Origin: Siphonodentalium dalli
Lineage: Eukaryota; Mollusca; Scaphopoda; Gadilida; Siphonodentaliidae
NCBI GenBank assembly: GCA_032622095.1
Contig: CP136064.1
Span: forward strand, 170,632,310 to 170,696,309
Length of the DNA stretch: 64,000 nt
Direction of reading: 5' to 3'
Position numbers and translations under genes: made by a program. Under the pieces are notes generated by a model, which was not told the DNA's origin, ran no database searches, and worked only from the letters and a program-made list of their open reading frames with translations. Positions within the stretch are counted from its first letter, which is position 1. Each line of letters begins with the position of its first letter. Below, piece by piece: positions 217 to 59,653 of the stretch.

Positions 217-489
217 GGTGAAGTGTGCAGAATATGTGGGCGGACGTACACATCAAAAGACGGTTGCAACCAGCACATGATAAGGCGACACAAGCCCCTT
301 AATTTCGTCTGTGTTATTTGTAACAAATATTTCGCAACAAATTATGAGCTTCGCCGTCACGCAGCCTCCCACTCGGATGATTTGCCCTATCCTTGCAATA
401 AGTGTGACCGGAGTTTTCGAACAAATAACACTTTGTGGAAACACAAGAGAATTAAACACCAAACTGGTGGGGATTCTCGGCGATATTAA
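217..489 (+). CDS. Alternative terminal exon, three C2H2 zinc fingers
   Basis: The exon opens in phase 0 after CAG (216) with GGT GAA and ends at TAA 487-489, giving 90 residues. Finger 1 (about residues 4-25) is C-x2-C-x12-H-x4-H, finger 2 (about 33-53) has H-x3-H, finger 3 (about 61-82) has H-x4-H. Linkers are KPLNFV and SDDLPYP-like, not TGEKP. An in-frame ATG at 205 lies on the intron side of the acceptor and is probably not used. The fingers are expected to bind nucleic acid in the nucleus; the target is unknown. It is the only C2H2 exon upstream of the BED-like cluster. Confidence 0.8.
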   Translation, partial: GEVCRICGRTYTSKDGCNQHMIRRHKPLNFVCVICNKYFATNYELRRHAASHSDDLPYPCNKCDRSFRTNNTLWKHKRIKHQTGGDSRRY

Positions 490-674
490 CATGTTTATCT
501 AACGATGGTATGAGAGTATGCGTTTCATATTAATTTAATGTTATAGAGAATTATAGAGATTTTTTAGTAGCGATGTAGGCCTACCTCACCAGTATGTAAA
601 GTTGTACAGAACAGTATTCCTCCATGGATTTATGTTCAGACGACAGACATTTTAGAATTTTTAGATTGTGTGTT

Positions 675-709
<35 letters not shown>

Positions 710-1362
710 CCTCCCCCTATCTCCAGTGGAAGATTGTAGCAATCAACTTATCGAAAATCCAGCACATCGACTACTATTTTAGAGAACATAAAGTTTGAAC
801 TACGTAGAAATATAAATATTTACTACATTATTCAGGGCGAAATATTGGACATAAAAAAAAATATTACGGCAATGATTTCGCCAACAGTAGTCACTACATG
901 TATTTTGTTTTTAACAATGATGTTGTTTTCGACCTATTTTGATATAAAATTTATAAAAATAACTTATCTTGGCATCATTCTTTGTTATTCCGTCTGAACA
1001 GCTCAGCGGAGTGTTTCAAATCACTTTAAAATGATGGATCAGGTTCCTTTGCTCTCTGGTAAAATATGCCCTCCGAAGGATCATGGTCTTTTGCCAGCTA
1101 GTAATATGGGATATTGAAAGATGCTCTCTGATTGACTACTGGATTTATAGAGTTATATGCTGTTCAAAGGCCTTAAATTCCAAAAAAAATTGCGAGAATA
1201 AGAACATCGCATTTCTACTGGGATTCCAAGACTTTTTACGAGAATTAAAATGAGAATCATGATTCTTATTCTCGTCAATAGAGCCTTGTATGGAGTGTTC
1301 TCCCTTCTGTGAACATAGCCTCCTCCTATAGAGTACAGTAAGATATGTGGTTATATTTTCAG
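490..1362 (+). other. Intron with poly-C tract
   Basis: Holds a poly-C run at 676-719 and short inverted arms (cgagaataag near 1193, cttattctcg near 1264). No coding signal was seen. It ends in a T-rich tract and CAG at 1360-1362. Confidence 0.6.
676..719. repeat. Poly-C tract
   Basis: 31 consecutive C followed by interrupted C runs. Length in the assembly is likely unreliable. Confidence 0.9.
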
Positions 1363-1692
1363 AATAAACTTCAAGGAAGAGAAATACGAGGCACGCCTGT
1401 TTTTCTTTCGACTCTGGAAAGGTGGCCTATGAGTCATCAACTTGGATTTGAAACTGAGCTGATCAGAGGCAGAGAACTTGTGACGAAAGTGTGGTGCAAA
1501 GTTTGCTCTGAAAATTCCACTGAAATTCTCAGATGTTTGAAGATTGGAATGCGTGATCGAGAACCTTATATGGTCGGCACCAGATCTGTGCGGAAGTCCA
1601 ATATAGAGACTCATATGACATCAGCGGCTCATAAGAAAGGGATTGAAATTCTCAGAGAGAAGAAGCAGGCATTCTCGTTCACTTCTCCCTAG
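1363..1692 (+). CDS. Alternative terminal exon, BED/ZNF862-like zinc finger (copy 1)
   Basis: Phase-0 exon after TATATTTTCAG, 109 residues, stop TAG 1690-1692. Visible order: W-P at about residues 21-22, V-T-K-V-W then C-K-V-C (about 45-48), then Y-M-V-G-T-R and H-x5-H followed by K-K-G. The ligand pattern is C-x2-C-x35-H-x5-H. This resembles BED and ZNF862/C17orf113-type fingers, in which a W, a C-x2-C, a G-[ST] turn and a final H-x5-H form one zinc site. It has five paralogues downstream in the same phase. A nucleic-acid or protein-binding role is inferred from the family only. An ATG at 1345 lies in the intron side. Confidence 0.8.
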   Translation, partial: NKLQGREIRGTPVFLSTLERWPMSHQLGFETELIRGRELVTKVWCKVCSENSTEILRCLKIGMRDREPYMVGTRSVRKSNIETHMTSAAHKKGIEILREKKQAFSFTSP

Positions 1693-4661: not shown

Positions 4662-5021
4662 AAGAAACCGCATAAAGAAATCCTTGGATCACAAGTTCTT
4701 CTCAGGACTCTAAAAGCTTGGCCATGGAGTCACATTGTGGGATATGAAACTGCTTTATGTAGTGGTCCTGGTGGAAACCGTGATGTTGTGACAAAAGTTT
4801 GGTGTAAAGTTTGTGTGGAAAATATTGATGAAATTTCTCACCGAGCAAATCTAAGAGGGCGTCTCGTGAAGAGGAATGAAGAACCGTACATAATCGGGAC
4901 ACGGTCTGTGTCAAGATATAAATTTGGGCGACATGTCAAGAGCATTATACATCAGATAGGAGAGAAGATTATTTTAGAAAAAGAAAACGTTAGAAATGAT
5001 TGTTCTTCAGTTCAAAAGTAG
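4662..5021 (+). CDS. Alternative terminal exon, BED/ZNF862-like zinc finger (copy 2)
   Basis: Phase-0 exon after CAATTTCAG, starting AAG AAA CCG, 119 residues, stop TAG 5019-5021. It shows A-W-P-W, V-V-T-K-V-W, C-K-V-C, N-x-D-E-I, Y-I-I-G-T-R-S-V and R-H-x5-H-Q-I-G, so all four predicted zinc ligands are kept. It is closest to copies 1 and 3. A GTG or ATG start inside the exon would cut off the conserved W-P lead, which supports entry by splicing. Function is unknown beyond the finger. Confidence 0.8.
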   Translation, partial: KKPHKEILGSQVLLRTLKAWPWSHIVGYETALCSGPGGNRDVVTKVWCKVCVENIDEISHRANLRGRLVKRNEEPYIIGTRSVSRYKFGRHVKSIIHQIGEKIILEKENVRNDCSSVQK

Positions 5022-5416: not shown

Positions 5417-5740
5417 TTTACTCTGGAAAGAGCTCGAGGTCGACCAATTTCTCTCGCTGCTATGAAATGCTGGCCATTCATTAACCAACTTGGTTATGAA
5501 TCCATCACTGTTAATTGCAAGGAAGTAGTGACAAAAATTTGGTGCTTGGTTTGTTCCGAAAATGCCGACGAAATTATGAGAGATCCTCGTATGGGTGAGC
5601 GGCAAAAGGCATCGGAGCAATACATGATTGGAACAAAATTTGTGAAGAAGTGGACAGCAGAAAGACATTTAGACTCTAAGGCCCATGCCATTGGAATGGA
5701 AATTATGAGAAGAGATAACCAATACACTGAAGGAGACTAG
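5417..5740 (+). CDS. Alternative terminal exon, BED/ZNF862-like zinc finger (copy 3)
   Basis: Phase-0 exon after TTTTATTTCAG, 107 residues, stop TAG 5738-5740. It keeps C-W-P-F, V-V-T-K-I-W, C-L-V-C-S-E-N, the D-E-I motif, Y-M-I-G-T-K and R-H-x5-H-A-I-G. The short distance to copy 2 (395 bases) and shared motifs suggest a local tandem duplication. The tail after the last His is about 20 residues and polar. Confidence 0.8.
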   Translation, partial: FTLERARGRPISLAAMKCWPFINQLGYESITVNCKEVVTKIWCLVCSENADEIMRDPRMGERQKASEQYMIGTKFVKKWTAERHLDSKAHAIGMEIMRRDNQYTEGD

Positions 5741-7867: not shown

Positions 7868-8209
7868 GGAGCATATTGTTCTGCCGTGAAGCTTGATGGT
7901 GCTGTGCTTTTCTCAACATTTTCACGCTGGCCAACTGGGGGTCTTATAGGATGTAAAACCGAGCAGGACTCATTTGGCAGAAACTTAGTGAAAGAAGTCT
8001 GGTGTAATCTGTGTATCCAATATTCAGAGCAGATCCTTTCTGAAACGCGGAAATCTCGCCGGAATACCAAGGAGGCTGAAACATATATGAAGGGAACCAG
8101 TCGTTCTATCACAAAATTCAATGTGATGCGTCATTTATCATCTAAAGCCCATGCCATTGGTGTTAGATTGAGCAGTTGTGACCCGCAGCCGTTTGTCCTT
8201 GACGGTTAG
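7868..8209 (+). CDS. Alternative terminal exon, BED/ZNF862-like zinc finger (copy 4)
   Basis: Phase-0 exon after CCTTATTTTCAG, 113 residues, stop TAG 8207-8209. Motifs: F-S-R-W-P-T-G-G, L-V-K-E-V-W, C-N-L-C, Y-M-K-G-T-S-R and R-H-x5-H-A-I-G. The W-P-T-G-G and K-T-E segments link it to copies 5 and 6, while W-C and S-K-A-H-A-I-G link it to copy 3, so it is intermediate between the two subgroups. Confidence 0.8.
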   Translation, partial: GAYCSAVKLDGAVLFSTFSRWPTGGLIGCKTEQDSFGRNLVKEVWCNLCIQYSEQILSETRKSRRNTKEAETYMKGTSRSITKFNVMRHLSSKAHAIGVRLSSCDPQPFVLDG

Positions 8210-10158: not shown

Positions 10159-10545
10159 AATCAATCAGCTGTTAAACGTTCCACTGTAGCATTGTGGACT
10201 TTCAAGCGCTGGCCAACTGGGGGAACATTTGATTACAAAACCGAGACTACTCCCGGTGGAAAGATACTGGTTACTGAAGTGAGGTGTCAGATCTGTCGAA
10301 GATATTCTGACAAGATTCGATCTTCTGAAAAGATCAGAGGTCAAGCAAAACGCGAAGCAGAAGTATTTATGAGAGGCTCAAAACAGATCACAAAACATAG
10401 TTTACTGCGTCACATGATGTCAAAATCTCATTTATATGGTTTTGAATTAAATCGACAGGAGTTGAGACCAATAATTGTTATTACGGAAAATCTGCCAAAG
10501 TGTCTACCAAAGCCGAAAAAGAAGACAAAGAGGAAGAAAAATTGA
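10159..10545 (+). CDS. Alternative terminal exon, BED/ZNF862-like zinc finger (copy 5)
   Basis: Phase-0 exon after GTCTGGTTTCAG, 128 residues, stop TGA 10543-10545. It shows F-K-R-W-P-T-G-G-T-F-D-Y-K-T-E, T-E-V-R-C-Q-I-C, F-M-R-G-S-K-Q-I and R-H-x5-H-L-Y-G. W before the first Cys is replaced by R, as in copy 6. The C-terminal tail is long and strongly basic (lysine-rich, last 15 residues), which could act as a nuclear localisation or DNA-contacting segment; that is inference. Confidence 0.8.
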   Translation, partial: NQSAVKRSTVALWTFKRWPTGGTFDYKTETTPGGKILVTEVRCQICRRYSDKIRSSEKIRGQAKREAEVFMRGSKQITKHSLLRHMMSKSHLYGFELNRQELRPIIVITENLPKCLPKPKKKTKRKKN

Positions 10546-11463: not shown

Positions 11464-11832
11464 AGGAATCAGCCACCAGAAAAAGGTTCTAAAATATCGT
11501 TGCCAACCTTCAATCGCTGGGCAACAGGGGGAGTATTTGAATACAAGACTGAGAGAGCAGCAGATGGAAGGATATTGGTTTCTGAAGTCCGCTGCCGAAC
11601 TTGTAGGCGTTACTCAGACGAGATCTTACATCTGGCAGGCCATCGCTTCAAAGGGGAAGTGAAAAATTGTGTAGAGAATTATATGAAAGGGACAAGATTT
11701 GTCCACAAAGGGAATATAACCCGTCACTTAAGGTCAAAATTCCATTTACATGGAGTTGATCTCGGCAAGAAAGATTTCTATCTGACACCTATGTTTAACG
11801 CTGAGGAAAACAATACTTCAGATTATTGTTGA
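11464..11832 (+). CDS. Alternative terminal exon, BED/ZNF862-like zinc finger (copy 6)
   Basis: Phase-0 exon after TATGGTTTTCAG, 122 residues, stop TGA 11830-11832. Motifs: F-N-R-W-A-T-G-G-V-F-E-Y-K-T-E (P of W-P replaced by A), S-E-V-R-C-R-T-C-R-R-Y-S-D-E-I, Y-M-K-G-T-R-F-V and R-H-x5-H-L-H-G. It is the closest relative of copy 5. It is the last BED-like exon; every later exon is C2H2. Confidence 0.8.
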   Translation, partial: RNQPPEKGSKISLPTFNRWATGGVFEYKTERAADGRILVSEVRCRTCRRYSDEILHLAGHRFKGEVKNCVENYMKGTRFVHKGNITRHLRSKFHLHGVDLGKKDFYLTPMFNAEENNTSDYC

Positions 11833-13297: not shown

Positions 13298-13498
13298 GGG
13301 AAGCTGAGGTGTTCACTCTGTTTGAGGGCATACACATCAACAAAAGCTTTTCAGGATCACATCATTCGCTATCACAAGAAACATAACTACAAGTGTGAAT
13401 GCGGATTAACGTTTCCGTTCAAATACGACCTGTATCGACATGTATCAAGAAGTGGGCATGGATATCAAAAAACAAAAGGGAACGGAGATTTATTATAA
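13298..13498 (+). CDS. Alternative terminal exon, two fingers with C-x1-C second knuckle (a)
   Basis: Phase-0 exon after TTGTCAACAG, starting GGG AAG CTG, 66 residues, stop TAA 13496-13498. Finger 1 (about residues 5-26) is C-x2-C-x12-H-x4-H. Finger 2 (about 33-52) reads Y-K-C-E-C-G, a C-x1-C pair, then x12-H-x5-H. The short knuckle is shared by the next two exons, so it is inherited, not a sequencing slip. Linker K-K-H-N. The polar tail has no known motif. Confidence 0.82.
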   Translation, partial: GKLRCSLCLRAYTSTKAFQDHIIRYHKKHNYKCECGLTFPFKYDLYRHVSRSGHGYQKTKGNGDLL

Positions 13499-13624: not shown

Positions 13625-13846
13625 TACAGTAATGCCCAAAGTAATTGACCACTTAACCACAGCATAATTATGGGTAATTTTTCAGGATTTAGTCGGAAAT
13701 ATGGCTTGTTGCCATTCATCGGAAAGCTTTCGGCGAGAGCTTTCCGATGAATGGCAACAAGCCATATTTCCGACTAAATCTTGAAAAATTACCCATAATT
13801 CTGCTGTTGTTAAGTAAAGTGGTCAATTACTTTGGGCATTACTGTA
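13625..13846. mobile_element. PAL1 MITE, copy 3
   Basis: Full-length palindrome, TACAGTAATGCCCAAAG to CTTTGGGCATTACTGTA, with the GAAAGCTTTCGGCGAGAGC loop region. Confidence 0.85.
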
Positions 13847-14822: not shown

Positions 14823-15038
14823 GGCAAGCTGAGGTGTTCTCTCTGTTTGAGAGCATATGCATCAACAAGAGTGTTTCGGGAGCACATCGTTCGCTATCAC
14901 AAGAAACATAACTACAAATGTGAATGTGGAAAAACCTTTCCGTTCAAATACGACCTGTATCGGCATGAAATGAGAAGCTGTCATGGATCACAAAAATCAA
15001 AAAAAGGAAAATACAAAGAATTTTCTCCTGCATGTTGA
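14823..15038 (+). CDS. Alternative terminal exon, two fingers with C-x1-C second knuckle (b)
   Basis: Phase-0 exon after CTTATCATAG, starting GGC AAG CTG, 71 residues, stop TGA 15036-15038. It is very close to the exon at 13298: G-K-L-R-C-S-L-C-L-R-A-Y, K-K-H-N-Y-K-C-E-C-G and F-P-F-K-Y-D-L-Y-R-H are shared. Finger 1 is C-x2-C-x12-H-x4-H; finger 2 is C-x1-C-x12-H-x5-H. The in-frame TAG of the acceptor itself shows translation cannot come from upstream without splicing. The lysine-rich tail is longer than in copy a. Confidence 0.82.
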   Translation, partial: GKLRCSLCLRAYASTRVFREHIVRYHKKHNYKCECGKTFPFKYDLYRHEMRSCHGSQKSKKGKYKEFSPAC

Positions 15039-15488: not shown

Positions 15489-15656
15489 GCGAAGCTGAAA
15501 TGTGGGCTGTGCTCCAGAACTTACACATCACGACAAGCATTCAAGAGGCACATCACTCGGTTTCACAGAAAGCATAAATTCAAATGTGAATGCGGGAAAA
15601 CATTCCCCTTCAAATATGAGCTATATCAACATAGAACAATGCGACATCGGAAATAG
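15489..15656 (+). CDS. Alternative terminal exon, two fingers with C-x1-C second knuckle (c)
   Basis: Phase-0 exon after CTCTTACTGTAG, starting GCG AAG CTG, 55 residues, stop TAG 15654-15656. Finger 1 is C-G-L-C-x12-H-x4-H and finger 2 is K-C-E-C-G-K-T-F-P-F-K-Y-E with H-x4-H, again a C-x1-C knuckle. It is the third member of the tandem group with 13298 and 14823 and has almost no tail (R-K after the last His). Confidence 0.8.
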   Translation, partial: AKLKCGLCSRTYTSRQAFKRHITRFHRKHKFKCECGKTFPFKYELYQHRTMRHRK

Positions 15657-17411: not shown

Positions 17412-17606
17412 AAAATATGGTGCGAGCAATGTGGGCGTGGCTATACGAGTAGGAGGACTTTTCGTGAGCATAACTATCGTCACCACAGGCCCCGTAGCCA
17501 TATCTGTGAATTGTGCCAGAAGTCTTTCTTCTTCCAGTGGCAGCTTCGAAACCATCTGCGAGATAAGCATGATGCAGTGACGGTTGCTCCAACCGAGAAA
17601 AAATGA
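17412..17606 (+). CDS. Alternative terminal exon, two C2H2 fingers
   Basis: Phase-0 exon after CTCATCGACAG, starting AAA ATA TGG TGC, 64 residues, stop TGA 17604-17606. Finger 1 (about residues 4-25) C-E-Q-C-G-R-G-Y, H-x4-H; finger 2 (about 32-53) C-E-L-C-Q-K-S-F, H-x4-H. Finger 1 resembles the previous group (Y-T-S-R-x-x-F-R-E-H) but finger 2 has a normal C-x2-C. A bridge between groups 3 and 4. Confidence 0.8.
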   Translation, partial: KIWCEQCGRGYTSRRTFREHNYRHHRPRSHICELCQKSFFFQWQLRNHLRDKHDAVTVAPTEKK

Positions 17607-19265: not shown

Positions 19266-19565
19266 GACAAAAAGCCTTTTACATGCCGCGAATGCAGTGC
19301 TGTGTTTCTTAACAAGATGTCTTTGGAGCATCATGAACCCACTCATGGGAAGAAAATGTGTGAACGCTGTGGCAAGTCATTCACAAGTAACTTTGTTCTG
19401 GCCGCCCATCTTTTGAGTCATATGAAACAAACTGGGCGAGGATCATACCCCTGCGAAATATGTGGCAAAAAGTACTTTGTGAAGTCTGAGTTTATAAATC
19501 ACATCAAAGGCCACCTGGATGGTGATGAAGGGAAAAAGAAGAAAAAGTCATGCCTAGTATACTAG
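19266..19565 (+). CDS. Alternative terminal exon, three C2H2 fingers with basic tail
   Basis: Phase-0 exon after CTGCTATCAG, starting GAC AAA AAG, 99 residues, stop TAG 19563-19565. Fingers at about residues 7-27 (C-R-E-C, H-x3-H), 32-52 (C-E-R-C, H-x3-H) and 63-83 (C-E-I-C, H-x3-H). The lead K-P-F-T-C resembles the end of a classical linker. The tail has five consecutive Lys. The acceptor's weak pyrimidine tract is the poorest of the array, so exact entry is slightly less certain. Confidence 0.78.
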   Translation, partial: DKKPFTCRECSAVFLNKMSLEHHEPTHGKKMCERCGKSFTSNFVLAAHLLSHMKQTGRGSYPCEICGKKYFVKSEFINHIKGHLDGDEGKKKKKSCLVY

Positions 19566-21831: not shown

Positions 21832-22048
21832 TACAGTAATGCTCTAATTAATCGACCCCTTAACCACAGCAGAATTATGGGTAACTTTTCAGGATTTAGT
21901 CGGAAATATGGCTTGTTGCCATTCATCGGAAAGCTCTCGGGGAGAGCTTTCCGATGAATGGCAACAAGCCATATTTCCGACTAAATCCTGAAAAGTTACC
22001 CATAATTCTGCTGTGTTTAAGGAGTCGATTAATTAGAGCATTACTGTA
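21832..22048. mobile_element. PAL1 MITE, copy 6, near-perfect palindrome
   Basis: TACAGTAATGCTCTAATTAA to TTAATTAGAGCATTACTGTA. The two arms match almost throughout around the loop CTCTCGGGGAGAG. Even the end variant GCTCT/AGAGC is paired in both arms. Confidence 0.88.
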
Positions 22049-22165
22049 TGTCAATTTTCTAGGATCAAAAATAGGTCTATATACACATGAAATACTGTTA
22101 TTTGGACTTCAATTTGGTCATTTAAATTAATTCTTATACACTGCAAACAATATAATCTATTATCA

Positions 22166-23269: not shown

Positions 23270-23515
23270 GCAGTTCGTCAGCAGAATGCGATCATACATT
23301 ACCAGATGACCGGTGAGATGTTCCAATGCACGCTTTGTGGGCGACATTTCAAATGCAAGCAGTATCTGACAACTCACATGTCTCGTCACGCCGAGCGCTT
23401 CCAACATTTCTGTGAGATGTGTGGGAAAGGATTCAAATTTTATACAAATTTACGTAGACATATTCGTGAAAAAAATCATTCATCAAAGCCAAGGATGAAT
23501 CAGCCAAGAATATAA
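23270..23515 (+). CDS. Alternative terminal exon, two C2H2 fingers, possible lost first finger
   Basis: Phase-0 exon after TATAATTGCAG, starting GCA GTT CGT, 81 residues, stop TAA 23513-23515. Finger 1 (about residues 20-40) C-T-L-C-G-R-H-F, Y-L-x2-H-M-S-R-H. Finger 2 (about 49-71) C-E-M-C-G-K-G-F-K-F-Y-T, H-x5-H. Both match fingers 2 and 3 of the exons at 34030-37462. The 19-residue lead ends T-G-E-M-F-Q, like a TGEKPF linker, and may be the remnant of a lost first finger. Confidence 0.8.
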   Translation, partial: AVRQQNAIIHYQMTGEMFQCTLCGRHFKCKQYLTTHMSRHAERFQHFCEMCGKGFKFYTNLRRHIREKNHSSKPRMNQPRI

Positions 23516-24481: not shown

Positions 24482-24698
24482 TACAGTAATGTCCTAATTA
24501 ATCGACTTCTTAACCACAGCAGAATTATGGGTAACTTTTCAGGATTTAGTCGGAAATATGGCTTGTTGCCATTCATTGGAAAGCTCTCCCCGAGAGCTTT
24601 CCGATGAATTTCAACAAGCCATATTTCCGACTAAATCCTGAAAAGTTACCAATAATTCTGCTGTGGTTAAAGAGTCGATTAATTAGGGCATTACTGTT
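24482..24698. mobile_element. PAL1 MITE, copy 8
   Basis: TACAGTAATGTCCTAATTAA to TTAATTAGGGCATTACTGTT. The right TA is changed to TT. Confidence 0.85.
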
Positions 24699-25891: not shown

Positions 25892-26110
25892 GTGTATCCA
25901 GAGCAATTAGACACAAATTATAGTGAAGTTCATTGGAAAAACAACCAAGATAACAGTTGTCAAATTTGTGGTAAAGTGTGCAGCGATAGATATCTGCTGA
26001 AAAGTCACATATTGGTGCACTCTCGTAAGCTGGAACAAATTTGTACAAGTTGTGGAGCATCTTTCAGATTCAGAAATCAGTTACGTCGCCACAAAATCAA
26101 ATACCACTGA
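25892..26110 (+). CDS. Alternative terminal exon, two C2H2 fingers (pair member 1)
   Basis: Phase-0 exon after TTTACTTGCAG, starting GTG TAT CCA, 72 residues, stop TGA 26108-26110. A 22-residue acidic/polar lead precedes finger 1 (C-Q-I-C-G-K-V-C, H-x3-H; the usual aromatic after G-K-x is a Cys). Finger 2 is C-T-S-C-G-A-S-F-R-F-R, H-x4-H, ending at the stop. Its partner is the exon at 27490, with which it shares V-Y lead, C-G-K-[VI]-C and C-G-A-S-F. Confidence 0.82.
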   Translation: MYPEQLDTNYSEVHWKNNQDNSCQICGKVCSDRYLLKSHILVHSRKLEQICTSCGASFRFRNQLRRHKIKYH

Positions 26111-27489: not shown

Positions 27490-27696
27490 GTTTACTTCAA
27501 TATGACACATGGAAAGGACCAAACTGTCAACTGTCGAGTGTGTGGCAAGATATGTCAATCAAAAGGGATCCTCAAAGATCATATGTTGCTGCACTCTGAT
27601 TACTTGGGACGAATTTGCTCGTTTTGTGGAGCTTCATTCAAGTTCAGGAGCCAGTTGAGCCGACATAAATTGAAATTCCACAGTTCTCATTCATAG
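27490..27696 (+). CDS. Alternative terminal exon, two C2H2 fingers (pair member 2)
   Basis: Phase-0 exon after GTGTCTTGCAG, starting GTT TAC TTC, 68 residues, stop TAG 27694-27696. Finger 1 C-R-V-C-G-K-I-C with H-x3-H; finger 2 C-S-F-C-G-A-S-F-K-F-R with H-x4-H. Again Cys stands where the aromatic core residue of finger 1 is normal. This supports duplication with 25892 after that change. Confidence 0.82.
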   Translation, partial: VYFNMTHGKDQTVNCRVCGKICQSKGILKDHMLLHSDYLGRICSFCGASFKFRSQLSRHKLKFHSSHS

Positions 27697-28861: not shown

Positions 28862-29176
28862 TTTCATAATGAGAGAGCTAGATCTTCTGATTTTTCCTGC
28901 ATTGTTTGTAAGATGAGGTTCAACAACTCGTCACTTTTGCAACAACACATCAAGACTCATGGCAGTCACGAAGCACATAATTGTTATGAATGTGGGAAGG
29001 TCTTTGCTTCGAAATTCCAATTACAGAGCCATATGAGTATACATTCAGATCACCTGAGATGGATCTGTCCAATTTGTGGTAAAGGTTTCCGACATAATAC
29101 ACAGATGCTGAGACACAGGAAGAGGTATCACCCTGATGTTAACATATTTCATTCTCTAAATGTTGCTTTGGAATGA
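28862..29176 (+). CDS. Alternative terminal exon, three C2H2 fingers
   Basis: Phase-0 exon after TTATTTTGCAG, starting TTT CAT AAT, 104 residues, stop TGA 29174-29176. Fingers at about residues 13-33 (C-I-V-C, H-x3-H), 41-61 (C-Y-E-C, H-x3-H) and 69-90 (C-P-I-C, H-x4-H). Linkers G-S-H-E-A-H-N and S-D-H-L-R-W-I. The S-D-[HY]-L linker and the last finger link it to 25892/27490, which look like two-finger versions. An AATAAA lies 19 bases past the stop. Confidence 0.85.
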   Translation, partial: FHNERARSSDFSCIVCKMRFNNSSLLQQHIKTHGSHEAHNCYECGKVFASKFQLQSHMSIHSDHLRWICPICGKGFRHNTQMLRHRKRYHPDVNIFHSLNVALE

Positions 29177-34029: not shown

Positions 34030-34296
34030 GGTGGGCTTTCCTCGCAGTATAGATGTGATATTTGTGGACGCTCCTACACTGCCGCATCATCTCTGACCAG
34101 GCACAAAAACGTACACATGGATGTAGGAAAATACCCTTGCCAATTGTGTGGACGAAGATTTCCCTTATTGGATTATTTAAAAGCGCACATGTCTAGTCAT
34201 TCAGCTGCTCGGCACTTTAAGTGTCAACATTGTGGTAAAGGCTTCCGATACTACACTCATCTCAGGAAGCATGTTCGCGAGACTCATCTAACTTAA
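34030..34296 (+). CDS. Alternative terminal exon, three C2H2 fingers (group 5a)
   Basis: Phase-0 exon after TGTCCATTTCAG, starting GGT GGG CTT, 88 residues, stop TAA 34294-34296. Fingers: C-D-I-C-G-R-S-Y (H-x3-H), C-Q-L-C-G-R-R-F-P-L-L-D-Y-L (H-M-S-S-H), C-Q-H-C-G-K-G-F-R-Y-Y-T (H-x4-H). The fixed spacing of three fingers and H-M-S-S-H in the middle one are shared with 36292 and 37196. Linkers are M-D-V-G-K-Y-P and S-A-A-R-H-F-K, not TGEKP. Confidence 0.83.
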   Translation, partial: GGLSSQYRCDICGRSYTAASSLTRHKNVHMDVGKYPCQLCGRRFPLLDYLKAHMSSHSAARHFKCQHCGKGFRYYTHLRKHVRETHLT

Positions 34297-36291: not shown

Positions 36292-36567
36292 GCAGTTTGG
36301 AACTCTGAACTTGGCTGTGAAATCTGCGGAAAGTGTTTTTCAAGAAAAGGGTCCTACCAGAGACACATAAAAAGTCATGTGAATGTGGGAAAATATATGT
36401 GCGAAATATGCTACCGAAGCTTCTCTCGCCAGGATTATCTACAATCCCATATGTCTTCTCACTCAATTACAAAAATGTTTCAGTGCAAATTCTGTTCCAA
36501 CTCATTCAAATTCTATACTCAACTTAGGAAGCACATACGTCATACCCATGTGACAAAAGAGTATTGA
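36292..36567 (+). CDS. Alternative terminal exon, three C2H2 fingers (group 5b)
   Basis: Phase-0 exon after GTTTTCTTCCAG, starting GCA GTT TGG, 91 residues, stop TGA 36565-36567. Fingers: C-E-I-C-G-K-C-F (H-x3-H), C-E-I-C-Y-R-S-F-S-R-Q-D-Y-L (H-M-S-S-H), C-K-F-C-S-N-S-F-K-F-Y-T (H-x4-H). The linker N-V-G-K-Y is shared with 34030. An internal ATG further in would miss finger 1, so splice entry gives the better product. Confidence 0.85.
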   Translation, partial: AVWNSELGCEICGKCFSRKGSYQRHIKSHVNVGKYMCEICYRSFSRQDYLQSHMSSHSITKMFQCKFCSNSFKFYTQLRKHIRHTHVTKEY

Positions 36568-37195: not shown

Positions 37196-37462
37196 GTTGA
37201 GGCTCCTGTCTACTGTGAAATTTGTGGACGGGGATACAGCTCCAGATCGTCATTAAAGCGGCATAAACAAGTTCATGGCAATGTGCCTAAATACTCATGT
37301 GAAATATGTGGCCGAGGCTTCCCTCTGTTGGGTTACCTACAAACTCACATGTCAAGTCATGCATCTCACCGACAGCATAAATGCACTTTCTGTAGCAAAG
37401 AATTCAAGTTCTATACATCGTATAGAAAACATATTCGAGACATGCACTTAAAGGGGAATTAA
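37196..37462 (+). CDS. Alternative terminal exon, three C2H2 fingers (group 5c)
   Basis: Phase-0 exon after CTACTTTTGCAG, starting GTT GAG GCT, 88 residues, stop TAA 37460-37462. Fingers: C-E-I-C-G-R-G-Y (H-x3-H), C-E-I-C-G-R-G-F-P-L-L-G-Y-L (H-M-S-S-H), C-T-F-C-S-K-E-F-K-F-Y-T (H-x4-H). Finger 2 is close to 34030 and finger 3 to 36292. An AATAAA starts 36 bases past the stop. Confidence 0.85.
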   Translation, partial: VEAPVYCEICGRGYSSRSSLKRHKQVHGNVPKYSCEICGRGFPLLGYLQTHMSSHASHRQHKCTFCSKEFKFYTSYRKHIRDMHLKGN

Positions 37463-38029: not shown

Positions 38030-38212
38030 ATGCGCATGCATACATGTGACATTTGTGGAAAGTCATATCTTCACCACCGGAACCTGGTTCGACATAAATG
38101 GTCTCATCGCCCAACATCCAACTTCACTTGCCAATTGTGCGGCAAAACGTTCTCAAGAAGTGATCATTATAAATGTCACATGGACAAACACAGAAAGCAC
38201 AATCAGATTTGA
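38030..38212 (+). CDS. Alternative terminal exon, two C2H2 fingers (group 6a)
   Basis: Phase-0 exon after TTCTGCTTTCAG, starting ATG CGC ATG, 60 residues, stop TGA 38210-38212. Finger 1 C-D-I-C-G-K-S-Y, R-N-L-V-R-H-x3-H; finger 2 C-Q-L-C-G-K-T-F-S-R-S-D-H-Y, H-x3-H. It happens to begin with ATG, but the acceptor and paralogy indicate splice entry. R-S-D-x-Y in finger 2 is the hallmark of group 6. Basic tail R-K-H-N. Confidence 0.83.
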   Translation: MRMHTCDICGKSYLHHRNLVRHKWSHRPTSNFTCQLCGKTFSRSDHYKCHMDKHRKHNQI

Positions 38213-38746: not shown

Positions 38747-38914
38747 GTCCCTCCATATATTTGTGAAATGTGTGGACGGTCCTATCTGCAAAAACGAAAC
38801 TTGATTCGGCACAAATGGTCTCATCGAAGCCACTGGAAGTTTATTTGCGAGTTATGTGGCAAACGATTCCCGAGGAGTGACCAGTACTCAGCACACATGA
38901 GGGTTCCCCATTGA
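38747..38914 (+). CDS. Alternative terminal exon, two C2H2 fingers (group 6b)
   Basis: Phase-0 exon after CTTGCTTTCAG, starting GTC CCT CCA, 55 residues, stop TGA 38912-38914. Finger 1 C-E-M-C-G-R-S-Y-L-Q-K-R-N-L, H-x3-H; finger 2 C-E-L-C-G-K-R-F-P-R-S-D-Q-Y, H-x4-H with the last His as final residue before the stop. Shares H-K-W-S-H with 38030. Linker R-S-H-W-K-F-I. Confidence 0.82.
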   Translation, partial: VPPYICEMCGRSYLQKRNLIRHKWSHRSHWKFICELCGKRFPRSDQYSAHMRVPH

Positions 38915-40354: not shown

Positions 40355-40543
40355 ACTGGCTATTATCCGTGCAGTATTTGTGGGCGGTCTTACCAGCACA
40401 GAGTGAACCTGAGGCGACATGAGCGCTCTCATAAAGCTCAGTGGAAATTCAACTGTCCTCTTTGTGGAAAAATGTTTTTCAGATCTGACCAATACAAGTT
40501 ACATATGAAAGGTCACAAAAGAGATAACCCGCTCTCACACTGA
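40355..40543 (+). CDS. Alternative terminal exon, two C2H2 fingers (group 6c)
   Basis: Phase-0 exon after CTTGATTTCAG, starting ACT GGC TAT, 62 residues, stop TGA 40541-40543. Finger 1 C-S-I-C-G-R-S-Y-Q-H-R-V-N-L, H-x3-H; finger 2 C-P-L-C-G-K-M-F-F-R-S-D-Q-Y, H-x3-H. Linker K-A-Q-W-K-F-N carries the Q-W seen throughout group 7, so it links groups 6 and 7. Confidence 0.82.
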   Translation, partial: TGYYPCSICGRSYQHRVNLRRHERSHKAQWKFNCPLCGKMFFRSDQYKLHMKGHKRDNPLSH

Positions 40544-41749: not shown

Positions 41750-41914
41750 ATATCTCGATTTGTTTGTGGAATTTGTGGTCGGTCATATCAGGCAAAGAAA
41801 AATTTGCTGCGACATGAACGGTTGCACCAGGGTTGGAAATTATCATGTCCTTTTTGTGGGAAAGTTTTCTTTAGAACTGATGTGTTTAAAAAGCATATGA
41901 AAATACATCAGTGA
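41750..41914 (+). CDS. Alternative terminal exon, two C2H2 fingers (group 6d)
   Basis: Phase-0 exon after TTGTTTTTTTCAG, starting ATA TCT CGA, 54 residues, stop TGA 41912-41914. Finger 1 C-G-I-C-G-R-S-Y-Q-A-K-K-N-L, H-x3-H; finger 2 C-P-F-C-G-K-V-F-F-R-T-D-V-F, H-x3-H. Linker Q-G-W-K-L-S is one residue shorter than in its neighbours. The only tail is one Gln. Confidence 0.82.
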   Translation: MSRFVCGICGRSYQAKKNLLRHERLHQGWKLSCPFCGKVFFRTDVFKKHMKIHQ

Positions 41915-42928: not shown

Positions 42929-43174
42929 ATTGGTCCATTTCGTTGTGAAATATGTGGGAAAGCATATGCACAAAAGGTGAATTTATGTCGACACAAAAGG
43001 TCACACAGTGATTCATGGAAATTCACTTGTAAATACTGTGGCAAAGTGTACAACAGGAGTGACCATTATAAATTACATATAATGAGACATGAACACAGAA
43101 GGCAGGGGTGTAATAACTCTCTTATTGCAAATTCCGACAAGATTGATGTAATGTATTTAGGGCCACAGACATAG
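42929..43174 (+). CDS. Alternative terminal exon, two C2H2 fingers with longer tail (group 6e)
   Basis: Phase-0 exon after TTCTGCTTTCAG, starting ATT GGT CCA, 81 residues, stop TAG 43172-43174. Finger 1 C-E-I-C-G-K-A-Y-A-Q-K-V-N-L, H-x3-H; finger 2 C-K-Y-C-G-K-V-Y-N-R-S-D-H-Y, H-x3-H. The roughly 30-residue tail is longest of group 6 and has no known motif, which may reflect loss of the ancestral stop after the last finger. Linker S-D-S-W-K-F-T. Confidence 0.82.
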   Translation: MGPFRCEICGKAYAQKVNLCRHKRSHSDSWKFTCKYCGKVYNRSDHYKLHIMRHEHRRQGCNNSLIANSDKIDVMYLGPQT

Positions 43175-44735: not shown

Positions 44736-44804
44736 AAACTTTTCTGAAAAAGTTGGATGTAAATCTAGCAATTTATTTATATTGGCCTTATGTATAATTG
44801 TATA

Positions 44805-45019
44805 TATAGTAATGCCTGAAGTATATGACCCTTTAACCACAACAGAATTTTGGGAATTTTTTCAGGATATAGTGGGAAATATGGCTTGCTGCCATTCATC
44901 GGAAGGCTCTCGGTGAGAGCTTTCTGATGAATGGCAAGAAGCCATATTTCCGACTAAATCCTGAAAAATTTCCCATAATTCTGCTGTGGTTTAGGGGTCG
45001 ATTATTTAGGAATTCTGTA
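44805..45019. mobile_element. PAL1 MITE, diverged copy 12
   Basis: TATAGTAATGCCTGAAGTAT to TTAGGAATTCTGTA with GGAAGGCTCTCGGTGAGAGC in the loop. Both ends are degraded. Confidence 0.75.
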
Positions 45020-45745: not shown

Positions 45746-45845
45746 NNNNNNNNNNNNNNNNNNNNNNNNNNNNNNNNNNNNNNNNNNNNNNNNNNNNNNN
45801 NNNNNNNNNNNNNNNNNNNNNNNNNNNNNNNNNNNNNNNNNNNNN
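45746..45845. other. Assembly gap (100 N)
   Basis: Exactly 100 undetermined bases, probably a placeholder of unknown true length. Confidence 0.98.
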
Positions 45846-45984
45846 GATTTCCATTAGGATGGAAAAATTGGTCATCTCAGCGCCAGCTTTAACAGTGACC
45901 AGGGATTGCTCCTACCCTGATGGGTAACTCAAGGATCATGGGTGTGCCTGTCTAGGCTTCAAGCGGTGTGCATTTAGCCACGTA

Positions 45985-46189
45985 TAAGTAATGCTCTAAA
46001 TAATCGACTCCTTAACCACAGCAGAATATGGGTAACTTTTCAGGATTTAGTCGGAAATATGGATTGTTGCCACTCATTGGAAAGCTCTCACTGAGATGAA
46101 TGCCAACAGCCATATTACTGACTGAATCCTGAAAAGTTACCCATAATTCTGCTGTGGTTAAGGATTCGATTATTTAGAGCATTACTGTA
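45985..46189. mobile_element. PAL1 MITE, copy 13
   Basis: AAGTAATGCTCTAAATAATC to TTATTTAGAGCATTACTGTA. The loop side of the right arm is shortened. Confidence 0.78.
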
Positions 46190-46481
46190 TAAGCAATAGT
46201 AATGTTTCAACAGTCTCAGAATTCATTCACTGGCCTCGATCTGATGTTCTCTTAAATAAGGAAACTCTGTTGTCTCAAATCGCTCATGCATGCATTTAGC
46301 AAGTATAAGTCAGCTTGTCATACTGATGAAATGTGCTGAACAAACCAGAGCAGCACCTGTTGAAAGGCTGCAGTTTGGTCCATTAATGGTTAGGCACAAA
46401 GTACTGCGAAAATGGTGTGATGTTTAAAAGTGTCCATGGATGCAGAACCGAACATTATTGTTATGTGTTTTCGCATTTCAG

Positions 46482-46652
46482 GCTGTTGATCTGCAGTGCC
46501 GGAATTGTGGGAAACAATACACTAACAGATCGAGTTACTCAAGACATATGCTACAGCATGAACAATGGAAATATCCGTGCTCTATTTGTGGAAGAAAGTT
46601 CTACAGGCGTGATATGTTGCTACGTCACTATCGCTCACATAATAGGAACTAA
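46482..46652 (+). CDS. Alternative terminal exon, two C2H2 fingers (group 7a)
   Basis: Phase-0 exon after TTCGCATTTCAG, starting GCT GTT GAT, 56 residues, stop TAA 46650-46652. Finger 1 C-R-N-C-G-K-Q-Y-T-N-R-S-S-Y, R-H-x3-H; finger 2 C-S-I-C-G-R-K-F-Y-R-R-D, R-H-x3-H. The linker E-Q-W-K-Y-P and F-Y-R-R-D in finger 2 define group 7. Tail is N-R-N. Confidence 0.83.
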   Translation, partial: AVDLQCRNCGKQYTNRSSYSRHMLQHEQWKYPCSICGRKFYRRDMLLRHYRSHNRN

Positions 46653-48400: not shown

Positions 48401-48404
48401 GCCG

Positions 48405-49708: not shown

Positions 49709-49894
49709 GTTTACAATCCATCATCATACATGTGCCAGCTCTGTGGGAAAGAATATAAGCTAAGAGACAGCTACACCAGACATATGCGAGCGCACAAACA
49801 ATGGCGACACAAATGCTCAATTTGTGGCAAGCTATTCTATAGGGCGGACGAATTGAAAAATCACATGAACAGACATAAGTTAAATGCGACTTAG
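49709..49894 (+). CDS. Alternative terminal exon, two C2H2 fingers (group 7b)
   Basis: Phase-0 exon after GTCGCTTTTCAG, starting GTT TAC AAT, 61 residues, stop TAG 49892-49894. Finger 1 C-Q-L-C-G-K-E-Y-K-L-R-D-S-Y, R-H-x3-H; finger 2 C-S-I-C-G-K-L-F-Y-R-A-D-E, H-x3-H. Linker K-Q-W-R-H-K. Finger 2 with F-Y-R-A-D-E is the best match to the broken exon at about 52019-52070. Confidence 0.83.
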   Translation, partial: VYNPSSYMCQLCGKEYKLRDSYTRHMRAHKQWRHKCSICGKLFYRADELKNHMNRHKLNAT

Positions 49895-52714: not shown

Positions 52715-52930
52715 GTTAAATTTCATCAGTGTCAGCTCTGTGGAAAGCAGTATGAACATCGAGGCAGCTTTACAAGGCATCTCCGACAGCACAAACAGTG
52801 GAAATATGCTTGTGAAATTTGCGACAAACCATACTATAGAATCGACAATTTCTTGCGTCATTTGGCTGCACACAAGAGACAAACAGCAGCTTCTAAAAGC
52901 GTTGTGTTATCCACTTCTGGCACTGAATAA
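52715..52930 (+). CDS. Alternative terminal exon, two C2H2 fingers (group 7c)
   Basis: Phase-0 exon after TTTTACGTTGCAG, starting GTT AAA TTT, 71 residues, stop TAA 52928-52930. Finger 1 C-Q-L-C-G-K-Q-Y-E-H-R-G-S-F, R-H-x3-H; finger 2 C-E-I-C-D-K-P-Y-Y-R-I-D-N, R-H-x3-H. Linker K-Q-W-K-Y-A. The tail of about 18 residues is Ser/Thr-rich. It is the intact exon closest in position to the relic at 51345-52080. Confidence 0.83.
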   Translation, partial: VKFHQCQLCGKQYEHRGSFTRHLRQHKQWKYACEICDKPYYRIDNFLRHLAAHKRQTAASKSVVLSTSGTE

Positions 52931-54323: not shown

Positions 54324-55526
54324 ATTTTGTTCGCCTAGACAAATGATATGTATATAATCTAAGATATGTGGATATGATTATTCCTATATTAAATACTTAA
54401 TGTGAATGTGAAGAGATTTCTGAGTATCTTGTCAGGCTATTAAAGTGCTTAAAGGTGGATTATCTCTTCTGCAACATTATCTATATAGTTTCTTTGGTAG
54501 GGTATAATAAATATTACTTGAAGACCACTGTCCGGAAATGTGTCTATTAATTAATAATGATTTTATTCTTTTTGGTATAACATAACTCTTTTCCATTCAA
54601 TAATGGTCCCTGATATTCACGACTGTCTTTTTTTATTTGCATTTATTGGTTAATTTAAGTATAGAAAATAGGTATATAATATGTATCTAGGACTTATCTA
54701 CTTTATTCGCAATTAATATTACAATAAATACAAAACTTTTGGAGACAGTTTGCAGCTCACATTCGTTCAGAGCACCACACTGGAGGCCTCTATCTAAAAG
54801 TTCTATATATAGAAAAAATAAGTGTCCCATTAATTGATACTTTATTTAGAACACTATAATAAAATAAAATCAACAATAATAGATAGAATTATTTACCGGG
54901 CAGGGATTTCAAACTCATACCTATTATTTCACACCCAGGAAACTATCTAAAATGTGCTATTTAAAGAGATAATCCATCTTTAAAATGTAAACATACATAG
55001 TGCAGTGTTGTGTATAAATGACTTACTCAGATGAATTGCATGGTTTTTGCAGATGAGGCATTTGAAGTGTCTTTGAATTTTTGTTGTCATGGGCATCTAA
55101 AACGACAGCTGTCGCTTTCTGTGAAATTACATTGCTATTCACACAGCGATCTGTGGCAAAAATCGTGATTGTACATTACATGTACTAGAATTATTTCTTT
55201 ATCAGAAATATCTTGCTTGACCATGCTTATTTACTTAATATGTGACAATGACTATATTTGTTACTCGGTATTGGTTATTCATGCAATTCTTTATACAAGC
55301 ACATCGCTTGTCTGTATGGGTTTCATTATGACCCCGCTGAATAAATTTTGTTTAATGAAACCAGTTAAGACATCATGACATGCCTCATGCCATCATTACG
55401 TCATTGGATTGCAGGCCAAAATCCAGACAAGACAAGATTCATCTCCAGGCAACTTATTTCGACTCACTAGACTAGACCATATGCAGACAATCTTCAATTA
55501 CTCCAGACATTCACACCGGTACCATA

Positions 55527-55744
55527 TACAGTAATGCTCTAAGTAAGCGACTTCTTAACCACAGCAGAATTATGGGTAAGTTTTCAGGATTTAGTCGGAA
55601 ATATGGCTTGTTGCCATTCATTGGAAAGGCTCTCCCCGAGAGCTTTCCGATGAATGGCAACAAGCCATATTTCCGACTAAATCCTGAAAACTTACCCATA
55701 ATTCTGCTGTGGTTAAGAAGTCGCTTACTTAGAGCATTACTGTA
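55527..55744. mobile_element. PAL1 MITE, copy 17, near-perfect palindrome
   Basis: TACAGTAATGCTCTAAGTAA to TTACTTAGAGCATTACTGTA. Arms pair almost throughout, including a GTAAGTTTTC/GAAAACTTAC variant present on both arms. Confidence 0.88.
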
Positions 55745-56000
55745 TGTATAAATCCTCCTTTCTATTTAAGTACATGTATGTACTCAACGAAGTGCCTCTG
55801 TTGAAGTCTAAACTGAAGCTACAAGCATTTGCATTACCACGCATTAATTAGACCTATTAAAATAGGTTCATGGCACGATTCTTCCTGAGGTTCTTTCCCT
55901 TTATAACATTGTATCGGAATTTGTCTATATGCCATGCATATTAACATATTATGACTATCATGCTTGAGATAAAGGGGCATTCTTCACTGTCTTATTTCAG

Positions 56001-56219
56001 ATGATCATTTGTATGGTCTGTAGTAAAGTCTACAGAAATAAAGATAGCTACAACAGACATAAACGCCAACACCAGCAGTGGGACTTCAAGTGCGCAATTT
56101 GTGACAAACTGTTTTATAGGCGAGACCACTGGAACCTTCACATGAAGGGGAAACACGGCGTAGTAGATCCCCACATGCATATGTCCAGAGGAGGTGATAG
56201 AGGACAAGAATTTCCATAG
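56001..56219 (+). CDS. Alternative terminal exon, two C2H2 fingers (group 7d)
   Basis: Phase-0 exon after CTGTCTTATTTCAG, starting ATG ATC ATT, 72 residues, stop TAG 56217-56219. Finger 1 C-M-V-C-S-K-V-Y-R-N-K-D-S-Y, R-H-x3-H; finger 2 C-A-I-C-D-K-L-F-Y-R-R-D, H-x4-H. Linker Q-Q-W-D-F-K. Its acceptor region and fingers are very like those of 58755, its sister copy. The tail is His/Gly-rich and longer than in the sister. Confidence 0.84.
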   Translation: MIICMVCSKVYRNKDSYNRHKRQHQQWDFKCAICDKLFYRRDHWNLHMKGKHGVVDPHMHMSRGGDRGQEFP

Positions 56220-57109: not shown

Positions 57110-57499
57110 TTAACCCTTTACCCAACAGAACGGCCCTGTGCCAATGCATTCTCTTATATATGCGAGTCGACCATAGGTAGCCTCGCATATATAAGAGAAT
57201 GCATTGGCTGAACACATTAAAAATTATAAAATTGTTAAAGAATGTAAGAAAAAATGGTAAAAAAAGTTTTTTTTTAGGCCAATGCATTCTCTTATATATG
57301 CGAGGCGACCTATGGTCGACTCGCATATATAAGAGAATGCATTGGCACAGGGCATAACTGTAACTATCACAATGTGGTCAAGGAGCCGGTTCCAATGATA
57401 TCCATATTTGTATGGTTCTATTGAGACAGACCGAAGATATTTTAGGCTGTTGAAGCTTTATTTGGCCGGTTTTGGCCGGTTTGTTGGGTAAAGGGTTAA
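57110..57499. mobile_element. PB-A variant, recent copy 1 (390 bp)
   Basis: Perfect 18-base inverted ends TTAACCCTTTACCCAACA / TGTTGGGTAAAGGGTTAA with TTAA at each border. Two internal hairpins carry CCAATGCATTCTCTTATATA and inverse arms. The piggyBac-like TTAA target is inferred from the ends. Confidence 0.85.
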
Positions 57500-58200
57500 T
57501 GAAAAACCCTTTACTGGTTTGCGAGTTTTAGGTGATTTTTGGAACTCATGCACTGTTAAATGAACTGAAGTTGTAAACTGTAAAGACATTGCAGGGTTCA
57601 TTCTGGCCCAAAATTTCCTTTTTATTTTATTTTATTTTTCAATAAATAATTTTGATACTTTCATTCGAAAATGAGAACTCACTTAACAAAACTTCTGCCA
57701 AATGAAAGTCATTTTTGCCAAATGTGATTTATTTTTCCTTTTGATAACTTAGACTAGCAGCAGCGCGAACCCTGTGCGTTGAACCTTCCACATGATATAT
57801 ATCGTATGCCTTGTATTTTATTTTGGTGCAGCATGTGGTGTATTAATGTGGACCAGCAAAGTTATTGAGTTGACTGGGATTCAAAATTTGAATATTTGTT
57901 CAATCAAATCAGTAAAATAGTGATGGAAACAGGTGACTAATTAACTCTTTTTCTCTCTTTATCTCTGGAAACGATCCTCAGGTTAACTCTTATAACATCT
58001 GTGAGACCATCAAGATTACGGCTTATATTGTTATGGAGGCTTCCTGGGTGACTTGAGATTCAGATTTAATGAAACCAGATTTATAGACCGGAAAGGGGTG
58101 GAACATCTTTTATGCATCCACCTGGCCCATTAAACTCTAACCAGCATGGGGTGGAGAATCACTGGGTGACTGGGATTCAGACCAGGGTTCAAATGGGGTC

Positions 58201-58601
58201 TTAACCCTTTAACCAACAGAAGGGCCCTGTGCCAATGCATTCTCTTATATATGCGAGTCGACCATAGGTCGCCTCGCATATATAAGAGAATGCATTGGCT
58301 TAACACATTAAAAATTATAAAATTGTTAAAGAATGTAAGAAAAAATGGTAAAAAGTGTTAAAAAAAGATTTTTGTTTAGGCCAATGCATTCTCTTATATA
58401 TGCGAGGCGACCTATGGTCGACTCGCATATATAAGAGAATGCATTGGCACAGGGCATAACTGTAACTATCACAATGTGGTCAAGGAGCCGGTTCCAATGA
58501 TATCCATATTTGTATGGTTCTATTGAGACAGACCGAAGATATTTTAGGCTGTTGAAGCTTTATTTGGCCGGTTTTGGCCGGTTTGTTGGGTAAAGGGTTA
58601 A
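58201..58601. mobile_element. PB-A variant, recent copy 2 (401 bp)
   Basis: Nearly identical to 57110-57499 apart from a few bases and a short extra GTGTTAAAAA-like segment in the spacer. The left end reads TTAACCCTTTAACCAACA. Lies 153 bases before the next exon. Confidence 0.85.
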
Positions 58602-58754
58602 TGTTGGAAGCCCCTATTAGAGCATCTGATCTAAATCTGACTATTACCTTCGTATCTGCTTTCTGTTAGCATGTGCTGTTGTGTCGTACAGTTCTCACAA
58701 TATTAACATGGGTATTGACATGTCGTAAAAGAGTGCTTCACTGTCTTGTTTCAG

Positions 58755-58928
58755 ATGATCATGTGTAGGGTGTGTAGGAAGGTCTACAAAAACAGAGATA
58801 GCTACAACAGGCATAAACGTCAGCACCGACAATGGGACTTTCTTTGCCACATATGCAACAAACCGTTCTACAGGCGAGATGCCTGGAATGTTCACATGAA
58901 GTCGAAACATGGTATTGGACCCGAGTGA
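58755..58928 (+). CDS. Alternative terminal exon, two C2H2 fingers (group 7e)
   Basis: Phase-0 exon after CTGTCTTGTTTCAG, starting ATG ATC ATG, 57 residues, stop TGA 58926-58928. Finger 1 C-R-V-C-R-K-V-Y-K-N-R-D-S-Y-N-R-H, x3-H; finger 2 C-H-I-C-N-K-P-F-Y-R-R-D-A-W-N, H-x4-H. Linker R-Q-W-D-F-L. It is the sister of 56001; finger-2 helix residues differ (H-W-N-L against A-W-N-V), so the two could differ in binding preference. Confidence 0.84.
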   Translation: MIMCRVCRKVYKNRDSYNRHKRQHRQWDFLCHICNKPFYRRDAWNVHMKSKHGIGPE

Positions 58929-59500
58929 TACTTAGCCAAACAATTTTGGTTGAGTCACCGACGAGGAAATTACCTCTATTAAACATGTGCTCACATTTAT
59001 CCAATTTAGCCCGATTAAACTAAATTTATAACTCGTTTAACTAAATATATTCTCCCGCCAGTTATAAAAGTATAATTTTGAATGGTCTAAGTGATGACCA
59101 AGTAATAAAAAATAAATTACCTATTAATGCAGACAAAATATCGTAGTCAAATTCAAATGCATTAGCATGAAAAAAGTGTTCAATGCAAGCGCATAGCCGT
59201 GAAATCACATACCAAATATGACTACGACTACATGTATGAAGCGCGCGGGTGTAGTGTCACCATTTCACAGATGAACTCTTCATGAAATAGGGGTATAGCT
59301 CAATCAGAAGGCGGGAAAGTCATGTGAGATACAAAATAGTTTAATAGTACATGTATTGTACATTATGAATCTCACTTGAAACAGAAATTCTATTGACGAT
59401 AGTTATTTAAAGGAATTCAAAAATATTTGTTTCTTTATATTATTTTCTCCCACTATGAACCTGACCAATATGGGCTACATGTATTTTCGTCTTTTTCTAG
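58929..59500 (+). other. Short intron, unrecognised
   Basis: No repeat family seen. Ends in ATTTTCGTCTTTTTCTAG, a strong pyrimidine tract with a TAG acceptor. Confidence 0.5.
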
Positions 59501-59653
59501 AAGTGTGGAAGGATGTACTCAAATCGGAGAAGCTACAACCGACACATACAGCAGCACAAACAGTGGCAGTACGAGTGCCCAATCTGCTATAGGAAATTCT
59601 ATAGAAGTGATGGCCTCGCCAATCATATGAAGTGTCATGGTGACAAACCTTGA
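59501..59653 (+). CDS. Last terminal exon, finger 1 lacks its first Cys (group 7f)
   Basis: Exon after TTTTTCTAG, starting AAG TGT GGA AGG, 50 residues, stop TGA 59651-59653. The remaining finger-1 part is K-C-G-R-M-Y-S-N-R-R-S-Y-N-R-H-x3-H: the Cys that should stand three residues earlier is cut off by the acceptor, whose TAG is in frame. Finger 2 is complete: C-P-I-C-Y-R-K-F-Y-R-S-D, H-x3-H (N-H-M-K-C-H). Linker K-Q-W-Q-Y-E. Either finger 1 is broken, the exon before supplies a Cys, or another acceptor is used. AATAAA follows the stop. Confidence 0.7.
   Translation, partial: KCGRMYSNRRSYNRHIQQHKQWQYECPICYRKFYRSDGLANHMKCHGDKP

Follow-up and report, generated by a model that had tools for sequence, protein, structure and literature searches.

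Does a long run of short zinc-finger open frames, most of them without a start codon, represent many small genes or the alternative last exons of a single one? The question is raised by a 64,000-nucleotide stretch of contig C4 (C4:170632310-170696309, base 1 being C4:170632310; hereafter the window), for which a first, sequence-only reading had proposed about 30 alternative 3'-terminal exons of one regulator gene on the plan of the insect gene lola, with the constant exons upstream. We find that the window, which lies wholly inside the locus, is very probably the variable 3' part of one gene for a BTB-zinc-finger regulator, in which the donor of a third constant exon (E3) would be joined to one of about 51 alternative terminal exons.

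Finger modules and their splice acceptors

C2H2 modules were identified by a six-frame scan of the window, and the list of open frames supplied six non-C2H2 modules. Thirty finger modules lie between positions 217 and 59653, all on the plus strand. Hidden Markov models (HMMs) of the modules, run on 2,191 frames (≥20 amino acids (aa), both strands), recovered the 24 C2H2 and the six other-finger modules and nothing further in the window better than E 0.13. The window has 47 strict C2H2 patterns on its plus strand and none on the minus strand (0 in 40 Markov-shuffled windows); over 244 kb the counts are 93 and 0. Most C2H2 modules have two or three fingers. The modules are less alike than first described: each has a finger module, but M02–M07 carry another type of finger, M08–M10 include a C-x-C variant, and the first finger of M30 is incomplete. 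A private upstream exon supplying the first Cys of M30 was sought and none convincing was found. A 100-N assembly gap between M24 and M25 (45746-45845) could hide a module.

Flanks of 70 kb were read on either side and then extended to C4:170816309. The array holds 51 intact modules over 164 kb (C4:170630910 to C4:170795131), one just upstream of the window (m00) and 20 downstream (m31–m50); the count of about 30 thus stands for the window, whereas the array begins and ends outside 217-59653. Up to C4:170806309 the HMMs matched 53 frames at E 0.01, all on the plus strand, two of which were left out: the copy at C4:170715752 is degraded, and the frame at C4:170593719, upstream of the constant exon E1, is partial. 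The 51 modules are 50–128 aa long (median 87) with gaps of 395–14,046 bp, and no module was found in the last 21 kb read (to C4:170816309).

Acceptors and donors were scored on a simple hand-made scale. With AGs in all phases scored from the frame start to about the first Cys, the best acceptor is in phase 0 in 30/30 window modules, preceded in frame by CAG in 27 and by TAG in three (M09, M10, M30). Phase 0 also wins in all 51 modules of the array when all AGs between the first Cys and a point 90 nt upstream of the assigned site are allowed to compete, and the acceptor score is ≥2.3 in 50 of the 51 versus 5% of all AGs. The composite window acceptor is pyrimidine-rich, with A or G as the first exon base in 28 of 30 cases. 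All 51 modules are single frames closed by their own stop (CAG 47, TAG 4), and an ATG stands at the start of three in the window (M20, M28, M29) and of four in the array. The 30 one-strand exons with acceptor, phase-0 frame and stop, mostly without ATG and some with an in-frame TAG, were thus correctly recognised in the sequence-only reading. Outside the window modules, 14 acceptor-like sites on the plus and seven on the minus strand precede a frame of ≥40 aa; acceptor plus frame alone is therefore no proof, and the case for the modules rests on finger homology and uniform phase.

Constant exons and the predicted gene

Searching the upstream sequence for a dimerisation domain (BTB or another) that ends in a phase-0 donor had been set as a test of the proposal, and both were found. 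Three constant exons, E1-E2-E3, lie 24–36 kb upstream on the module strand and encode a BTB domain and linker of 408 aa. A BTB search of the host genome (2.2267 Gb in 9 contigs) gave at least 144 matches (150 of 226 candidates scored), among them E2, which lies 33 kb upstream at C4:170598999 on the module strand; E1 was located 2.5 kb upstream of E2. E3 was found without prior assumption by blastn of the locus against a paralogous locus. It opens with one base that completes the split codon of E2, and it ends in phase 0 with GAG/GTAGGT in both loci. Joined in silico, E1, E2, E3 and M01 form one 498-aa frame to the M01 stop. The BTB domain is called by Pfam (E 2e-11) and is followed by an acidic linker. 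By tblastn, E1, E2 and E3 each have a single copy in the 254 kb searched, an argument against separate genes.

From the order, strand, phases, frame continuity and stops of these exons, their homology and the paralogous second locus, we infer the splicing itself, the isoforms made and their binding of nucleic acid. The constant half, a BTB pairing domain with its acidic linker, would end in one phase-0 donor, which would join one of about 51 downstream acceptors, each the start of one terminal exon that bears a finger module of its own. Because each terminal exon has its own stop, one mRNA would carry one module, and the pairing domain would be common to the isoforms, which would differ in the end that reads DNA (or nucleic acid).

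A paralogous locus and a possible BTB family

The paralogous locus lies 0.5 Mb downstream and comprises the same constant exons (C4:171092195-171101420) and the start of an array of its own. Among many repeat matches, blastn between the loci gave three blocks in the same order, with identities of 90% (E1), 94% (E2) and 87% (E3); at the protein level the constant exons are 84–98% identical, with synonymous divergence (dS) of 0.17–0.29. Between E1 and E3 the two loci share only one aligned 78-bp stretch plus repeats, and their modules are at most 49% identical. The low dS of the constant exons versus the divergent introns and modules is a poor fit to a simple split of the loci; gene conversion between the constant exons would fit. 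The paralogous array begins with a C2H2 module nearest m00/m01 and a second C2H2 exon, followed by four matches to the M02 type, and given this similar order the array is probably older than the split of the two loci. Phase 0 was best in 3/4 modules tested there.

The E2 exon has 27 matches in the genome including itself, 20 of them on C4 and C6. All but one begin at query residue 1 or 2, which is the exon boundary, the exception being a weak match at C3:187667961 that begins at residue 20; this points to about 25 BTB genes that form a family with a shared boundary. Finger arrays were observed at two loci of the family, and if many other members carry arrays, about 25 genes could give hundreds to a thousand BTB regulators. 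A further family BTB exon lies about 55 kb upstream of E1 on the minus strand (C4:170541146-170541685); there was no module in the 5 kb downstream of it, a weak negative given that the known first modules lie 17–22 kb from E3. Three more on the plus strand of C6 (59348489, 59493572, 59659702) are about 150 kb apart, each followed by array-sized space.

Cis splicing and its alternatives

Several observations weigh against a single gene with 51 terminal exons. The E2 donor scores 2.2, under E1 (3.9) and E3 (4.6), and its phase agrees in two of the three paralogues read and is ambiguous in the third. The join of E3 to the modules is predicted solely from phase and position; the intron from E3 to m00 would span 22 kb, the last module lies 186 kb from E3, and the acceptor scale is hand-made. 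With a zinc ligand missing from M30 and a further copy degraded, some exons may go unused. Donor-like sites occur inside two of the 51 modules, M13 (23313) and M24 (42977), and could extend the splicing pattern. Substitution rates were estimated for 27 module pairs at ≥50% identity, and dS is saturated in 15 of them. At the paralogous locus, the best acceptor (171122138) of a multi-finger exon at C4:171122121-171122549 is in phase 2, which fits the donor of E2 and not that of E3 and might reflect a splice that skips E3.

The strongest rival is trans-splicing, in which modules would be transcribed singly or in groups from promoters of their own and joined in trans to the constant RNA. Trans-splicing is reported for mod(mdg4) and in part for lola (PMC12692577, PMC1947980); the distance of the last module from E3 and the four modules starting with ATG would suit such a scheme. 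All 51 modules, however, lie on the strand of the constant exons, so that cis splicing needs nothing special, and the match of the intron beside E3 to its paralogue ends about 55 nt after the donor. We consider trans-splicing a serious but unlikely alternative.

It is improbable that the modules are mostly dead exons, i.e., decaying copies of which few are in use. The degraded copy, the missing Cys of M30 and the weak acceptor of M12 point that way, but 51 modules retain open frame, acceptor and phase, and in the 24 window C2H2 modules six of the Cys/His columns never vary and a seventh hardly does. In addition, nonsynonymous divergence (dN) is below dS in all 12 measurable module pairs (e.g., dN/dS values of 0.12/0.42 for M08/M09 and 0.16/2.3 for M28/M29). 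Tandem clusters of zinc-finger genes are common, and the four ATG starts would suit a cluster of separate genes with private starts and promoters, but this is very improbable, as 47 of 51 modules lack a starting ATG and four have an in-frame TAG directly before them, phase 0 is common to all, the constant exons are not repeated between modules, and the intermodule gaps go down to 395 bp.

Growth of the array

In the preferred reading of one gene with alternative last exons, the array would expand by local duplication of terminal exons. Similarity among the 24 window C2H2 modules drops with their distance in the array (Spearman -0.55, permutation p 0.0002). A tree of all 45 C2H2 modules (numbered in lower case over the whole array) has 42 inner branches, of which 12 have good support and 20 are left open; the small clades that are supported unite neighbours (m08-m10, m14-m15, m28-m29, m31-m34, m38-m40, m43-m45), with the exception of m25+m30. 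Modules m00-m01 fall together with m08-m11, on the other side of the six odd modules. Growth largely via local duplication is the best explanation of this pattern. Upstream of M29 there is a direct duplication of about 400 bp (57110-57501 and 58201-58603), whose 96% identity indicates that the region is still undergoing rearrangement.

Helix positions -1, 2, 3 and 6, which usually set the DNA preference of a finger, vary between modules, and the second finger of M20–M30 has R at -1 and D at 2 throughout.

Putative transposase-type fingers

The ligands of M02–M07 are C-x2-C and H-x5-H with some 35 residues between them, and these fingers are not C2H2. The M02-type finger has a confident predicted fold (predicted local distance difference test score, pLDDT, 84.5). 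Three of the six match zf-C17orf113 (PF25431) at E up to 10, the best at 19.3 bits, under the curated cut-off of 29.5. A genome search with M02 gave at least 61 matches (150 of 217 candidates scored). Its own array accounts for six of these and the paralogous one for four; the other 51 are spread over all 9 contigs, and 18 of them lie in frames of 450–863 aa, five of which are exactly 858 aa long. The one dispersed frame that was read extends over 852 aa from its ATG, and its residues 2-81 match M02 (E 2e-13). Pfam gives no transposase domain for this frame, and searches of PDB and NCBIfam gave nothing notable; terminal repeats were sought in the 4.5 kb read and none were convincing. Its C-terminal stretch may resemble hAT transposases. 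M02–M07 are best read as the capture of a transposase finger from a dispersed multicopy element, six terminal exons then carrying it; the direction from element to gene is suggested by the position of the finger at the start of the single multicopy frame read.

Relation to known systems

Vertebrate ZBTB genes and BACH1 have a related BTB domain, and the ZBTB genes also have C-terminal fingers; they generally have one DNA-binding end per gene and are not known to have an array of alternative last exons. In a PDB search with the BTB domain (27 chains), BACH1 was the best single domain (4e-9), ZBTB17 alone reached 4e-7, and a ZBTB17-BCL6 fusion chain reached 1e-10 across two domains. The TTK-type protein CG6765 matched at 2.9e-5 over residues 41-116 only, and the N-terminal TTK motif appears to be absent.

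Drosophila lola joins a constant BTB half to one of 20 last exons, 17 of them with fingers (PMC10551640, PMC11426971), and mod(mdg4) combines BTB constant exons with alternative 3' exons to give over 30 isoforms (PMC12692577), mostly with FLYWCH domains (PMC11426971). The present locus shares this plan. It differs from lola in its 51 modules, in a BTB domain that in the search made is nearer to BACH1/ZBTB17 than to a TTK type, in the six modules whose finger is related to a dispersed element, and in that no signs of an arthropod genome were found; in contrast to mod(mdg4), for which joining in trans and mostly FLYWCH domains are described, it has C2H2 and C-x2-C...H-x5-H fingers, all of them on a single strand. 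The label lola-like is apt for the plan and implies no descent. TTK BTB domains are reported from Arthropoda only (PMC11426971). That the host is not an insect, as had been surmised, is weakly supported, since the arthropod cuticle domain PF00379 had no matches in 2.2 Gb, a result for which the control genomes gave none either and thus no positive control. CpG depletion (0.51) is diagnostic of no taxonomic group.

SETMAR and KRABINER are host-transposase fusion genes in which a transposon DNA-binding domain is joined to a host regulatory domain (PMC12062965). Here such a domain would instead be one option of a large exon library, six in a row. Tentatively, the locus may be a lola-like library of at least 51 exons outside arthropods, with an independently recruited BTB class and fed by mobile elements, transposase fingers having been captured as last exons and then tandemly multiplied. 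It would then be one of about 25 BTB genes sharing an exon boundary, and two of these, 0.5 Mb apart, have arrays that begin in similar order (C2H2, then transposase-like) and constant exons kept alike.

Among the titles and abstract openings of the open-access papers listed, which leaves subscription papers and preprints uncovered, no such locus outside arthropods was found; the lola and mod(mdg4) plan is described in insects. Regulated choice of a last exon has to date been studied in binary cases (PMC10551640), which leaves open how one among dozens is selected. A larger, apparently non-arthropod case with two paralogous loci would offer an independent comparison, which could separate the requirements of such loci (a shared donor, uniform phase and a single strand) from incidentals (TTK BTB, trans-splicing, FLYWCH). 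The six element-related modules would also make this locus a place to watch transposon fingers entering a regulator via last exons.

Feature coordinates and repeats

Table 1. Features of the locus; coordinates with the prefix C4 refer to the contig, all others to the window.
Feature	Coordinates	Strand	Remarks
E1	C4:170596376-170596530	+	ATG 170596402; phase-0 donor; first part of BTB
E2	C4:170599005-170599816	+	phase-0 acceptor, phase-2 donor
E3	C4:170608415-170608697	+	phase-0 donor GAG/GTAGGT at end
m00	C4:170630910-170631188	+	upstream of window
M01	217..489	+	3 C2H2 fingers
M02	1363..1692	+	C-x2-C...H-x5-H finger; zf-C17orf113-like, under Pfam cut-off
M03	4662..5021	+	M02-type finger
M04	5417..5740	+	M02-type finger
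M05	7868..8209	+	M02-type finger
M06	10159..10545	+	M02-type finger
M07	11464..11832	+	M02-type finger
M08	13298..13498	+	one C2H2 finger; second finger a C-x-C variant
M09	14823..15038	+	one C2H2 finger and C-x-C variant; in-frame TAG acceptor
M10	15489..15656	+	one C2H2 finger and C-x-C variant; in-frame TAG acceptor
M11	17412..17606	+	2 fingers
M12	19266..19565	+	3 fingers; weakest acceptor (score 0.5)
M13	23270..23515	+	2 fingers
M14	25892..26110	+	2 fingers
M15	27490..27696	+	2 fingers
M16	28862..29176	+	3 fingers
M17	34030..34296	+	3 fingers
M18	36292..36567	+	3 fingers
M19	37196..37462	+	3 fingers
M20	38030..38212	+	2 fingers; ATG start
M21	38747..38914	+	2 fingers
M22	40355..40543	+	2 fingers
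M23	41750..41914	+	2 fingers
M24	42929..43174	+	2 fingers
M25	46482..46652	+	2 fingers
M26	49709..49894	+	2 fingers
M27	52715..52930	+	2 fingers
M28	56001..56219	+	2 fingers; ATG start
M29	58755..58928	+	2 fingers; ATG start
M30	59501..59653	+	second finger intact, first finger without first Cys; in-frame TAG acceptor
m31–m50	C4:170697845-170795131	+	downstream of window
Degraded module copy	C4:170715752	+	not counted among the 51
MITE-like repeat copies (about 220 bp)	13625-13846, 21832-22051, 24482-24701, 44798-45019, 45983-46190, 55526-55745, 62700-62924		

A repeat of about 220 bp is scattered between the modules in copies that match one another on both strands; several copies also match themselves and are thus palindromic, resembling miniature inverted-repeat transposable elements (MITEs). 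A tandem repeat (C4:170624024-170627308) with a period near 160 bp, as judged from the steps of the BLAST matches, lies in the E3-m00 intron, and a related repeat lies downstream of the paralogous E3 (C4:171106917-171108279).

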